Assembly: GCA_025526995.1 (NCBI GenBank)
Contig: JAHLKG010000014.1
Span: 124,001 to 188,000, forward strand
Source: Powellomyces hirtus
Lineage: Eukaryota > Chytridiomycota > Chytridiomycetes > Spizellomycetales > Powellomycetaceae
DNA: 64,000 bases
Direction: 5' to 3'
Shown here: in pieces, positions 11,829 through 46,284 of the stretch
Numbering within the stretch: position 1 is the first letter of the stretch
How the letters are laid out: every line of letters starts with the position of its first letter
Made by a program: the position numbers and the translations under genes
Notes under the pieces: model-generated
Databases searched by the model: none
The model's input: the letters and a program-made list of their open reading frames with translations, nothing else
Told to the model about the DNA's origin: nothing

Positions 11829-12484
11829 TTCATTTCAGGACATTAACATACACACACACAAAACTCTAGTCTTTCCTTCTGTCGCACTTGCCCCTACCCG
11901 ATTTGTTTGCCCCCCTGCCTTCCCTCCAACACCATACAATAAGGATCAACATCTCAATGTGCTTGGTTTGTGAATACTTAACCCCTCTTGCCATTTGTGC
12001 ACAAGCTCTTTGGTTGCACTGGCAATCACTGCTATCCGTTGGTGTATGTGGCATGGCATGACATCTGGCCATTCCAGTGGATCAGAAGAAAAAAAAAAAG
12101 AAAAGTCCGTAAATGGTCAATTTGCAACTTTGAACAATCGGGTGGGCATCTCCTTCCAATGACTCTTTCTTCGCTGGCTCAAAGCAAAATGTGGGACTTT
12201 CCAAGCAGAGGATGGCCGAAGAACACCGCTCTCAGTAAACGGGCCTCGATATCTCGCGGCATGTGTCGCCACTTCCGCACATGAGGCCCTATTATGGATC
12301 GCAGCCGTTCGAGAATGATTTGAGATTGATTATATGGTAGGCCAGGAAGACGGCGGACGAGAATTCACGGCGTTATTTATAACGGATGAAGCATGTTATG
12401 TGTCGCTAAGGCGAAGTACTTGATGCATTTAGCACTCGCTGCACCCGGCACGCAAACATGTATTTTTCGTTGCCGTTCGGGTAG
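11829..12484. other. Intergenic, downstream of PRS
   Basis: This is the 3' flank of the prolyl-tRNA synthetase gene, then DNA leading to the TATA box at 12485. No protein gene is recognised. Confidence 0.4.
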
Positions 12485-12493
12485 TATAAAAGG
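12485..12493 (+). promoter_or_regulatory. TATA box (TATAAAAGG) facing the hairpin array
   Basis: A textbook TATAAAAGG lies ~150 nt before the long foldback, reading rightward. No protein gene follows it, so it is a candidate RNA polymerase II promoter for a noncoding transcript through the array. This is inferred from position and sequence only. Confidence 0.45.
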
Positions 12494-12641
12494 AAAGCGT
12501 TCTGCCCCGGCGCCTGTGGTTCGAAGTTGCCTACAGCTGTATGGTGTCGTGGATCAGAAAGCGTTGATGAGTTTTCTAGCCGCCACGATGTTGTCTAGTG
12601 ATATGAGTTGCTTCCTTCTGCCAGCACTGCAGCTGACTATA

Positions 12642-12843
12642 GTCCCGACTTGAAGATAACGTGCCCGACTCATTCTTCAATGGGAGCCTGAACCTCAGGT
12701 GGTCTATCGCAAGGCCGTCGCCAGATCCGCCCGTTGACTGCGCTTCTTGCTTGTATCTGGCTTTGAATGAACATATCCGGACCACCTGAGGTCCAGGCTC
12801 CCGTTACAGAATGAGTCGGGCACGACACCTTCAAGTCGGGAGA
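12642..12843 (+). repeat. Long imperfect inverted repeat (foldback, arms ~62 nt)
   Basis: The left arm (12642-12704, including CGTGCCCGACTCATTCT and GGGAGCCTGAACCTCAGG) is an imperfect reverse complement of the right arm (12779-12843, including CCTGAGGTCCAGGCTCCC and AGAATGAGTCGGGCACG). They are separated by a ~75-nt loop. As RNA this would make a ~60-bp hairpin. Its sequence is unrelated to the ten hairpin units that begin 15 nt downstream, but it lies in the same orientation series. It could be the first member of the same transcript, or a small MITE-like element; I see no clear target-site duplication. Confidence 0.8.
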
Positions 12844-12857
12844 CAGTGGAGGAAAAA

Positions 12858-14318
12858 CGATTACCACTCTCCAATCCAAGTTATGAGTTCCTTCTTTCCG
12901 GCCAAAAAAGGATAGAAATGCAAAGGAAGTCAAGACTTGGTAAGGGAAAAGCAGTGATCGATGCCCTCCGTACTTTGGACATTTGAATGAGGGGATTACC
13001 AATCTCCGATCCAAGTTACGAGTTGGTGATTTCCTCATGATGGCAAGAACAAGGCAGCAAGTCGAGACTTGGTACGGGAAGACCAGTGATCTACACTCTC
13101 CGCACCGGAAGAGGTGGTGAAGTGAGACAGAGAGCAAGGGGTTACCACTCTCCGATCCAAGTTACGAGTTGCTCGGTTTCCCAGTAAGCCGAAGGAAAGG
13201 AAGCAAGTCGAAACTTGGTAAGGGAAAAAGCAGTGATCCATGCTTTCCATATCGGAGAGATGAGACGGGGGAACGGGATTACCACTCTCCAATCCAAGTT
13301 ATGAGTTCCTTCTTCCGGCCAAAGAAGGATAGAAATGCAAAGGAAGTCAAGACTTGGTAAGGGAAAAGCAGTGATCGATGCCATCCGTACTTTGGAAGTT
13401 TGAATGAAGAAAGTAAGAGGATTACCAATCTCCGATCTAAGTTACGAGTTGGTGCTTTCCTCATGATGGCAAGGAAAAGACAGCAAGTCGAGACTTGGTA
13501 AGGGAAGACCAGTGATCCACACTCTCCGCACCGGGAAGAAGTGGTGAAGTGAGACAGAGAGCAAGGGGTTACCACTCTCCGATCCAAGTTATGAGTTCTT
13601 CTGTCTGGCCTCAGTCAAGGGCGCGGCAATGCAGAGGAAGTCAAGACTTGGTAAGGGAAGGAGCAGTGATCCATACTCTCCACACTGTAAGAATATTGAA
13701 TGAAGGAAGATGAGGAAGGGGAGGGTGCGGTTACCACTCTCCAATCCAAGTTACGAGTTGCTGTTTTCCCAGGATGAGGAAGGGAATCAAGCAAGTCGAG
13801 ACTTGGTAAGGGAAGAAGCAGTAATCTATACTCGCCGCAGGAAGGAAGAAGGGGAGGAAGGGATTACTATTCTCCGATCCAAGTTACGAGTTGCTGCTTT
13901 CCCCGCGCAAGGCATTGGGAATGAAAGCAAGTCGAGACTTGGTAAGGGAAGAAACAGTAATCCACACTCGCCGCAGGAAACGAGAAGAAGAGGAAGGGAT
14001 TACCATTCTCCGATCCAAGTTACGAGTTGCTGCTTTCCCCGTAAGCCAATGGGAAAGAAAGCAAGTCGAGACTTGGTAAGGGAAGAAACAGTAATCCATC
14101 CTCTCCTGATCTCGACGAGAGAACCGAAACAGTCTCCTCGCCGATGTGGGAAGGGAGAAGGGGACGTGGGAACTCACAAACGGTAGAGTGGTTGGTTGGA
14201 GGCATTACCACTCTCCTATCCAAGTTACGAGCTGCGTTGTGATCGTTGGTTGACAGGAGGATGTCCAGTCATCGTGCGACAACAGCAAGTCGAGACTTGG
14301 TATAGGAAGACGCAGTAA
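12858..14318 (+). ncRNA. Tandem array of ten covarying hairpin units (candidate structured RNA family)
   Basis: Units: 12858-12960, 12993-13092, 13139-13239, 13276-13377, 13419-13518, 13566-13672, 13728-13827, 13861-13963, 13997-14097 and 14204-14318. Each has an outer 7-bp stem (typically GGATTAC with GTAATCC or GTGATCC). A one-sided-rich internal loop follows (ACTCTCCGAT facing AAGGGAAGAAGCA). The inner ~17-bp stem pairs CCAAGTTACGAGTTGCT with AGCAAGTCGAGACTTGG, keeping A-A and G-G mismatches, and is topped by a variable loop. Units with TTATGAG (1, 4, 6) all carry GTCAAGAC; the other seven with TTACGAG carry GTCGA-AC or GTCGAGAC. This is a perfect C-G/U-A compensatory change. Wobbles are almost all G-U when read on +, favouring + transcription. 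No known RNA family is recognised. Confidence 0.7.
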
Positions 14319-14396
14319 GACGCACCAACCCTCCAAGGGCGAACGGAGGAAGAGAAGTGAGTGTGGGGAGGGAGGGGGGATGAGCGGATTGCCTGC

Positions 14397-14406
14397 CTTT
14401 TTATAA
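14397..14406 (-). promoter_or_regulatory. Inward-facing TATA-like box at the right end of the array
   Basis: On the minus strand this reads TATAAAAAGG, pointing back into the array from its right edge, ~80 nt from unit 10. With the box at 12485-12493 it could allow convergent, antisense transcription. Evidence is the motif alone. Confidence 0.3.
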
Positions 14407-15568
14407 CAATTTGCGAGGGCAGCTGGCCCGGGTGGAAACGAATGGGAAAGTTGTCAGGCACAGCAAGGGCCAAAGGGGGATGAACGAAACCGACGCGTCG
14501 GGAAAAGGGACGGCTGGCTCCATGACTCATCACCACCCCATCGCGCAGCAAACCAACCATCAACACACAACAATATCAATATTCGTCTTCGATATTGGGA
14601 AGGGCCCGGGGCTCGAGGGGCTGCTCACAACGGTCGTCGATTATGATATCTGATGGGCGGGCGGATAGGGGGTGGACGGTGTCTTTAAATCGTTGCTTAC
14701 GATATCGATACAATATGTGCCCTCGCACAAAGTGACGCGTGTAACCAACCCCAAATCACTAATTACTTTCACCGCTGCCAGTGCTTGATGAGCAGCTTGA
14801 CTGCCAGTGACTGACTATCTTTATTACGATATCATACTGCCGCCGCGTGGAGCTCGAAAGGGAGAGTAAGGGTATCCACCGGCCAATGGGAGCCAGCGCG
14901 TGGTGCAACTTCACTCCCAAATTTGGGCTAATGGAGAATACTTCGGCGACCACGCTTTTGTGGACCTATGCGTTGGGACAAGCCTGAACTTTGGACATCA
15001 CCTTCCCTGTAGCCTGCTTTGACATATGCCACTGCTACCAACATGATCAGCAGGTTTGGGACGATCTTTTTTTTTGGCCCACACTCGTGCCGGGAGATGC
15101 TCACAGCTGTGGTCTGCAGGACAGCCAAGTTTGGGGAACCCGATGAGAGACTCGACCAGGCAGAAAAAGTCGCATGGACAGTCGGTGCAGCTTCCGCAGT
15201 CGCTAGTATGTGCTTCACCCATCCGTCAGCATTGAGTTGGAGAGATTAGAGGAGAAAGAGGGGTCAAAGGCGCAAGCGCAAGTGAAAGTCATGGTTGAGC
15301 GGATTGAAAGTGAAGAACTAGCGTGGAAAGAATTGTGGACCGCAGTGGTCTGAATGGTCAACCGCAGGTGAAATGCGGGTGCTGATCCATTATTCAAGCA
15401 TTCCGGGTCAACTGGAAATCGATGAGAGAACCGCTTTTAACAAGGCATATCTTCTTCGGAGCGAAAAACGCGGCCCTGGACTGCAAAATCTTGGAAGTTT
15501 CATTGTCCACAGTGACCTCACAAGTGTCTTTTCGTTGTGATGTAGCGGCGGCAGCGTCATCAGCAGCC
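14407..15568. other. Gene-poor interval right of the array
   Basis: It contains several ATATCGAT/GATATC-type stretches (14570-14720) and no convincing gene. An open stretch around 15220-14930 on the minus strand looks weakly protein-like but has no recognisable family, start or splice frame. Confidence 0.35.
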
Positions 15569-45404: not shown

Positions 45405-46284
45405 TCCGTCCATCCCCGCCCATCGCCCAATTCCCATCACATATGGTTTAGCATGGGAATTCATGAGTTTCATGCATCCATGACGGCAAATGTACCAACT
45501 CCTACGAAAATATGAGCAACCACAGCAAGCCCATGAGAAAATGCTCCGCGACGCCCGACTAAGCCCACGAAACGCACCCCGTTCCACGGCGGTCCATTAG
45601 GCAGTCCACCACGTCCACTTGCTGGTCCACTGGGTTGTGGACATTGTGAGCAGGTCCACCGCTGATTGCGATGTGGGCCTGTCGACTCGACCGACACCTT
45701 CGTTTTTTTTGCATTGTGGGCGAGGCTGATGAGAGAGGATTTTTAGTGAAGGTTGTGAGAAGCAGCGTGGGGATGTGGCACGATCAAATAGTATGACGGC
45801 GCTTTATTACGGTACAGCTCTTTCTCGCCGCTTGCTGTCCATATGAGACGAGCTGCCATATTAAGCCTCGATGGAAAGCTCATCTATTGAGCGCATGCCC
45901 CGGATGTCTCCGCAGATCCCGACGCCCCACAGCTCTTGGCCGTGATGCACCCTCCCCTTCACGCCGTGCTGCATATAGGCCCACGACTTTTCACTTCCCA
46001 TTTCATCCCGGACTGTGCCGGCCGCCCGTGCCACCCAACCACCCATCCACCGCTGCTGCGCCACGATTCCCTGCTATAAAAGCTGACGCACTCCCGCATC
46101 CCCCTCCCAGTTTACTTTCAAGTCCTCCGTGAGGTTTGCACATTACCACGCATACAACCCTCGCCTTTTACTAGAGTTGTCCGTGTGTAAGCCTCGCTAT
46201 GCGGAGTGTGAAACTATTTTTTGCTCAACCCATCTTCTCTTTCTGAGAGAGAGGGATTTGTTTGAATACAAGGAAGAAAAGAAT
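45405..46284. other. Gene-poor interval with a second TATA box
   Basis: Noncoding as far as I can see. A TATAAAAG at 46075-46082 faces right and is followed by a pyrimidine-rich stretch. Confidence 0.4.
46075..46082 (+). promoter_or_regulatory. TATA box (TATAAAAG), plus strand
   Basis: A canonical TATA motif 210 nt upstream of an ATG at 46285. It may drive a small transcript in the 46.1-46.5 kb segment. Confidence 0.4.

Follow-up and report, generated by a model that had tools for sequence, protein, structure and literature searches.

The 64-kb window, by which we mean the whole stretch of Powellomyces hirtus DNA that was analysed (64,000 nt), contains an array of ten related hairpin units of 98-118 nt each at 12858-14321, with a unit-to-unit spacing of 133-205 nt (Table 1). 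A tandem array of ten hairpins had been claimed in an earlier sequence-only reading of this DNA, and alignment and folding of the units confirmed it within these limits. The four top-scoring rows of Tandem Repeats Finder all fell within 13142-14106. A long foldback lies on one side of the array and a candidate minus-strand promoter on the other.

Table 1. Features of the hairpin array and its flanks, in window coordinates.
Feature	Position	Strand	Basis
TATAAAAG, possible competing plus promoter	12485..12492	+	motif; lacks the CATCCCC element
Foldback: 62-nt arms, 89% complementary, 75-nt loop	12643..12841	-	inverted-repeat search and fold; strand predicted
Unit 1, U-A haplotype	12858..12960	-	alignment and folds; strand predicted
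Unit 2, weakest fold relative to shuffles	12993..13092	-	alignment and folds; strand predicted
Unit 3	13139..13239	-	alignment and folds; strand predicted
Unit 4, U-A haplotype	13276..13377	-	alignment and folds; strand predicted
Unit 5	13419..13518	-	alignment and folds; strand predicted
Unit 6, U-A haplotype	13566..13672	-	alignment and folds; strand predicted
Unit 7	13728..13827	-	alignment and folds; strand predicted
Unit 8	13861..13963	-	alignment and folds; strand predicted
Unit 9	13997..14097	-	alignment and folds; strand predicted
Unit 10, the most divergent; would lead the minus transcript	14202..14321	-	alignment and folds; strand predicted
Predicted transcription start, some 40 nt ahead of unit 10	14362..14364	-	analogy with U2/U4, ~43 nt from TATA box
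CATCCCCCCTCCC element past the TATA box, like that of snRNA genes	14370..14382	-	motif; comparison with snRNA loci
TATA box TATAAAAA of the predicted minus promoter	14398..14405	-	motif and context

On the plus strand, all ten units folded into the hairpin that had been described; the outer stem was weaker in unit 10. The shared register is an imperfect hairpin of 35 positions, whose stem (in plus alignment columns) comprises 3-9/117-123, 12-13/113-114, 15-17/107-109, 20/104, 21-27/96-102, 29-31/92-94, and 33-37/86-90; some of these pair registers are alignment-dependent. Column 103 is bulged, and the stem is broken by a tandem mismatch (18-19/105-106) and by A-A (columns 28/95) and G-G (32/91) mismatches which, as previously claimed, are fixed in all ten units. 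Within the tandem mismatch, columns 18 and 106 are mismatched in nine of the ten units and columns 19 and 105 are unpaired on the plus strand in nine of ten, and there are bulges besides; in unit 10 the tandem mismatch is replaced by two Watson-Crick pairs. The "asymmetric loop" of the sequence-only reading is in fact partly paired (conserved pairs 12/114, 13/113, and 15-17/107-109). The flip that it noted at the outermost pair was also seen: 3/123 is G-C in six units, C-G in one (unit 1), G-U in one, and unpaired in two. Against 200 dinucleotide shuffles of its own sequence, every unit folded better than the shuffle mean, with z from -2.1 to -6.7 on the plus strand and from -2.1 to -6.3 on the minus; the fold of unit 2 is weak, being matched by 7/200 shuffles on plus and 6/200 on minus. 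When the window was scanned for folding in 110-nt segments, an array position ranked first (13861, plus strand, z -3.4), barely ahead of the next two at -3.3 and -3.2, and the mean z of the array region was only -0.8 (plus) and -0.6 (minus); single 110-nt segments do not distinguish the array.

Mean pairwise identity among the units is 90% in the 5' arm and 86% in the 3' arm, as against 42% in the tip and 36% in the outer linker (linker identity is ungapped, linkers 9 and 10 having been trimmed to 36-37 nt). Similarity is higher over the linker's first 12 nt, at 61% identity versus 36% for the remainder. Conserved arms with diverged tips and linkers are the usual pattern among miRNA paralogues. 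The 22-column segments with least variation in each arm, 13-34 and 89-110, lie opposite each other, without a 2-nt 3' overhang, and conservation spans more than 22 nt per arm. After most hairpins the linkers carry a CAYACTCTCCGCA-like motif (e.g., 13092-13103 and 13518-13529) that resembles CACTCTCCG in the plus 5' arm; both copies could pair with one opposing strand, a possible alternative pairing. Protein coding was rejected, as six of nine unit spacings are not multiples of three and every frame contains 7-22 stops.

Searched at the DNA level, the genome (29,264,165 bases) gave nine matches, every one inside the array, and no second hairpin was found elsewhere in the genome with 21-mer patterns of each arm. 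A hairpin model (R1) run on the window plus 11 loci (115061 bases) at E up to 10 returned 18 matches, namely the ten units and eight of these again on the minus strand; it gave no match at four stray 21-mer sites outside the array. Viral and prokaryotic contig collections contained 0 matches to the exact 3'-arm pattern, a weak test for relatives, as that pattern itself fits 7/10 units. Within the array, near-identical pieces are shared by units 1 and 4 (95 nt, 96%), 2 and 5 (119 nt, 93%), and 3 and 6 (71 nt spanning linker and the beginning of the hairpin, 93%).

The array had been put forward as a structured RNA belonging to no known family, and a covariance-model check against Rfam 15 bore this out: no family matched the array at its gathering score, and U5 (46124-46253) was the sole match over gathering in the window. 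At E up to 10, the region 12000-15000 contained six sub-threshold matches (E 0.15-7), none of them to a snoRNA family. Three of the six were miRNA families inside the array, far under their gathering scores, and the highest-scoring, MIR1219, matched units 7 and 8 on the minus strand (23.3 and 21.5 bits versus a gathering score of 79). These sub-threshold matches are likely due to chance. A 5S rRNA ancestry, considered for a likeness in ACTTGG...GGGA, was rejected because RF00001 did not match in the array; with 47 of 1612 candidates scored, its 6 matches all lay elsewhere, none of them on C14. A tRNA-like origin was likewise rejected, with no tRNA in the window.

Of the 270 cells in the 27-pair structure, 95.9% form pairs; column shuffles reach 91.8%, and sliding the partners by 1-3 columns leaves no more than 52.6%. 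The score for covariation (0.160 vs. 0.097 in shuffles) and the number of double-change cells (9 vs. 2.6) were equalled by none of 500 shuffles, while the four pairs changed on both sides were equalled by 42/500 and the ten further pair types were the same as the shuffle mean; the favourable figures are inflated by the relatedness of the units. When all 1431 pairs of variable, ungapped columns were ranked by covariation, pair 12/114 came first, with 29/94 and 35/88 tied at rank 5, and a partner permutation gave p = 0.0024 for the 7 testable of 16 varying structural pairs. The compensatory change claimed at pair 29/94 does exist (C-G in seven units, U-A in three), but it is best read as one event rather than three. 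Since ten alignment columns split units 1, 4, and 6 exactly from the rest, and since pieces of the units are near-identical, 29/94 and 35/88 count as one haplotype. The covariation reflects few independent events. The claim that apical stems change on both sides together is supported, as the tips still pair though their sequences differ. Tips beat their own 300 mononucleotide shuffles (p below 0.05) in 8/10 units on the plus strand (not units 2 and 10) and 8/10 on the minus (not 2 and 6), with Stouffer z of -7.8 (plus) and -8.4 (minus), a statistic that treats related units as independent. The tips are the strongest evidence for selected pairing, though they are not mutually independent.

The candidate promoter resembles those of snRNA genes in the same genome. 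TATAAAA occurs in the 64 kb twice on the plus strand and four times on the minus, and CATCCCCCC?TCCC occurs in the window only at the array promoter and at 46097 (U5). TATAAAA with CATCCCC 4-25 nt downstream is found at just two places in the window, the U5 gene (46075, spacing 15) and minus 14405 (spacing 16). The U5 snRNA gene (46075-46253) has a promoter of TATAAAAG and CATCCCCCTCCC; a second U5-like gene, on C2 (L062), was recognised by eye. Since the motif was first noticed at U5 and L062 was found by motif search, the two U5 genes are not independent support. Three U2 and two U4 loci were identified by Rfam models, independently of the motif, and in all five TATAAAAG lies some 41-43 nt upstream of where the model begins, the element after it being CATCCCC in four and TACCCC in one. 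At L072, L073, and L075 the RNA seems to begin ~43-44 nt past the first T of the TATA box (5' ends placed by eye). The snRNA comparison comprised U2, U4, and U5. Genome-wide, the promoter pattern at a spacing of 14-18 occurred 217 times versus once for a reversed control. Among the 100 matches listed, out of 217, 89 lay in one repeated element and 11 outside it; four of these 11 were examined, of which one was a U5 gene, one stood before a 416-aa open frame, and two stood before nothing recognised. Considering the matches at the repeated element and at other genes, the motif marks strong promoters, snRNA genes included but not exclusively. The repeated element carries the promoter TATAAAAGGACGCCCTCTGGGCATCCCC or a close variant and is clustered, usually with one cluster per contig listed (e.g., C12:334802-392662, C8:385960-444720, and C6:595504-644320); it is possibly a centromere-clustered transposon.

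The sequence-only reading held that nearly all wobbles are G-U on the plus strand and that selection acts on a plus-strand RNA. Counted over the full register, 254 of the 350 cells are Watson-Crick pairs, and wobbles of plus type number 21 against 31 of minus type, with 44 cells of other kinds, so the first statement does not hold. Six varying positions have plus-type wobbles and six have minus-type, and the column pair 11/115 is minus-type in all ten units; some of these positions are alignment-dependent, and wobble counts alone leave the strand undecided. At the top covarying pair, 12/114, two cells that are A-C on plus become G-U on minus, and the pair is intact in 10/10 units on the minus strand only. 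The snRNA-like promoter also lies on the minus strand. Fold energies do lean plus, both in the sum of the ten units (-400.3 vs. -369.9 kcal/mol on minus) and by RNAalifold (-28.5 vs. -18.8 on minus). On balance the second statement is not supported either, and the array is probably a non-coding hairpin gene transcribed from the minus strand. Downstream of the plus-strand TATAAAAG at 12485, the segment 12565-12636 (+) contains TGATGA (12565) and CTGA (12633) at a weak C/D snoRNA-like spacing, without Rfam support.

The neighbouring foldback is the longest inverted repeat of the window (arms of at least 25 nt, within 600 nt), the next being 33 nt and homopolymer-rich. Its folding energy is -124.7 kcal/mol on plus and -131.0 on minus (z -12.0 and -13.3), and its 62 positions include four minus-type wobbles, one plus-type, and two other mismatches. 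No other match to it was found in the 29.3-Mb genome. Homology with the units was rejected, the best local score being 19 versus a shuffle mean of 19.3. On the minus strand, the foldback would come after unit 1 as the 3'-most hairpin.

Genes for RNAi are present in this genome. Piwi-domain matches number 13 at seven loci (C1, C2, C4, C5, C6, C18, and C24, the last weak). An 1826-aa frame on C6 has Dicer architecture, combining helicase and Dicer-dimer domains with a pair of RNase III domains and a PAZ match narrowly below the cut-off. RNase III gave seven matches at four loci, three of them double, with a second Dicer on C17, a further double locus on C3, and a single match on C27. RdRP gave 12 matches at three loci. 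With such genes, dicing would be possible. Genome searches with the arm 21-mers yielded no convincing target: 3 of 13 matches to the 3' arm and 1 of 9 to the 5' arm lay outside the array, versus one control match in each case. The nearest 3'-arm site, L034:1501-1521 (C3:345814), has two mismatches, with the seed mismatched in the assumed register, and lies upstream of an open frame that, by the look of its sequence, may encode selenoprotein O.

Considering the conserved arms with free tips, the tandem paralogy, the adjoining foldback, the Pol II-type promoter, and the RNAi genes, a microRNA-like or hpRNA cluster fits best. Our reading, held tentatively and with somewhat less than even confidence, is that the array is a non-coding hairpin polycistron feeding RNAi; the cluster is possibly a source of gene-silencing small RNAs. 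An snRNA-like Pol II promoter (TATA 14405, CATCCCC 14382) would start a minus-strand RNA near 14363, which would pass through the ten hairpins, with their mostly pyrimidine-rich linkers, and then the long, near-perfect foldback at 12841-12643, for a predicted transcript of ~1.7 kb. The hairpins would be Dicer substrates, each giving a duplex of ~22 nt where stem conservation is highest, with the consensus minus 5' arm TTCCCTTACCAAGTCTCGACTT opposite AACTCGTAACTTGGATCGGAGA. These duplexes would load Argonaute to form a family of near-identical small RNAs, like a clustered microRNA-like locus, that may act on targets. Both arms of each duplex lie within one foldback stem, and Dicer and Argonaute are found in the host genome, as is usual for microRNAs. 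The two fixed single mismatches, the tandem mismatch in most units, and the bulges, along with conservation reaching past 22 nt per arm, look like a poor fit to strict miRNA criteria. Also counting against this reading are the missing 2-nt 3' overhang of the conserved segments, the plus-leaning fold energies, the plus-strand TATA at 12485, the promoter motif at the repeat and other genes, and the unconvincing targets. In the fullest version of the reading, an snRNA-type promoter would drive a polycistron made up of ten paralogous microRNA-like hairpins and one long hairpin RNA, with pairing maintained by selection, possibly the first such cluster in an early-diverging lineage of fungi; taken whole, this version appears rather unlikely.

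Its chief rival, unlikely yet a serious contender, is an intact, structured long non-coding RNA, in which the hairpins are repeated sites for one protein and the undiced transcript is a scaffold or sponge. Sequence is kept as well as pairing, and protein recognition could explain the fixed A-A and G-G mismatches; the promoter is like that of stable snRNAs, and the likeness of the linkers' first 12 nt also suits a scaffold. However, the adjoining foldback suits dicing better than protein binding, and a simple binding site would not require long stems with free tips. It is distinctly improbable that the array is a polycistron encoding ten small, stable RNAs, whether snoRNA-like or of another kind, each excised as a ~100-nt hairpin, for instance by RNase III. 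The snRNA-like promoter, the unit length, the conserved sequence at the hairpin base, and the RNase III matches in the genome, including the single-match locus on C27, would agree with it, but no Rfam family matched over gathering and the six sub-threshold matches include no snoRNA family. In plus-strand folds, a pocket-to-box distance of 14-15 nt made an H/ACA snoRNA tempting; this identity was rejected, as ACA follows the stem only in units 2, 5, and 8 (3/10, by eye). C/D boxes were sought by eye alone.

It is very unlikely that the array is an element of DNA without RNA function, a local tandem duplication with quasi-palindromes whose copies gene conversion and template switching keep alike. 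Recent duplication and exchange are indeed evident from the block similarity of units 1-3 to 4-6 and from haplotype sharing, independent compensatory events are few, and two covariation measures are little or no better than shuffles. Nevertheless, the arms are conserved while tips and linkers have diverged, the tips still pair, mismatches that template switching could erase are fixed in all units, and a promoter motif adjoins. A transposon or satellite remnant, for which an inverted repeat beside tandem repeats could speak, is scarcely credible, since no second copy of array or foldback was found in the 29.3-Mb genome and inspection of the surrounding ORFs by eye revealed no transposase.

Several known systems bear comparison with the preferred reading, a hairpin polycistron feeding RNAi. 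In animals and plants, clustered pri-miRNAs are single Pol II transcripts with several hairpins, conserved arms, and variable loops, and hpRNAs have a long foldback; by comparison, the stems of the array carry more fixed mismatches, and the arm searches identified no convincing target. The U2, U4, and U5 genes of the same genome have a like promoter, TATAAAA then CATCCCC, but each yields a single snRNA, whereas the predicted transcript of the array is ~1.7 kb of repeated hairpins. Fungal milRNA loci likewise encode small-RNA precursors in the form of hairpins, in hosts that possess Dicer and Argonaute, although the products of the array are predicted from sequence and it differs in having ten related tandem hairpins with a common snRNA-like promoter. 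According to PMC9757828, a re-analysis, fewer than half of 1727 reported fungal microRNA-like loci met basic standards, 25 were conserved in several species, and genomically conserved hairpins rate as strong milRNA candidates; "tandem" and "polycistron" have 0 occurrences in its main text. In A. subglobosum (Amoebozoa), several paralogues of asu-mir-1204 (eight reported, PMC11014262) give one miRNA duplex, as proposed for the array, with the difference that reads are proven there. Of the literature matches listed (titles and abstract openings, with subscription journals largely uncovered), none dealt with clusters of tandem hairpin RNAs in chytrids. Thus, as far as these sources extend, fungal hairpin small RNAs and multi-copy protist miRNAs are known, and the matches listed contain no instance of this variant, ten tandem units under an snRNA-like promoter.

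Having ten copies within a single array, the hairpin family supplies its own evolutionary replication, which makes pairing, arm choice, and processing testable at one locus. In addition, the promoter match suggests a route to other structured RNA genes in this genome.
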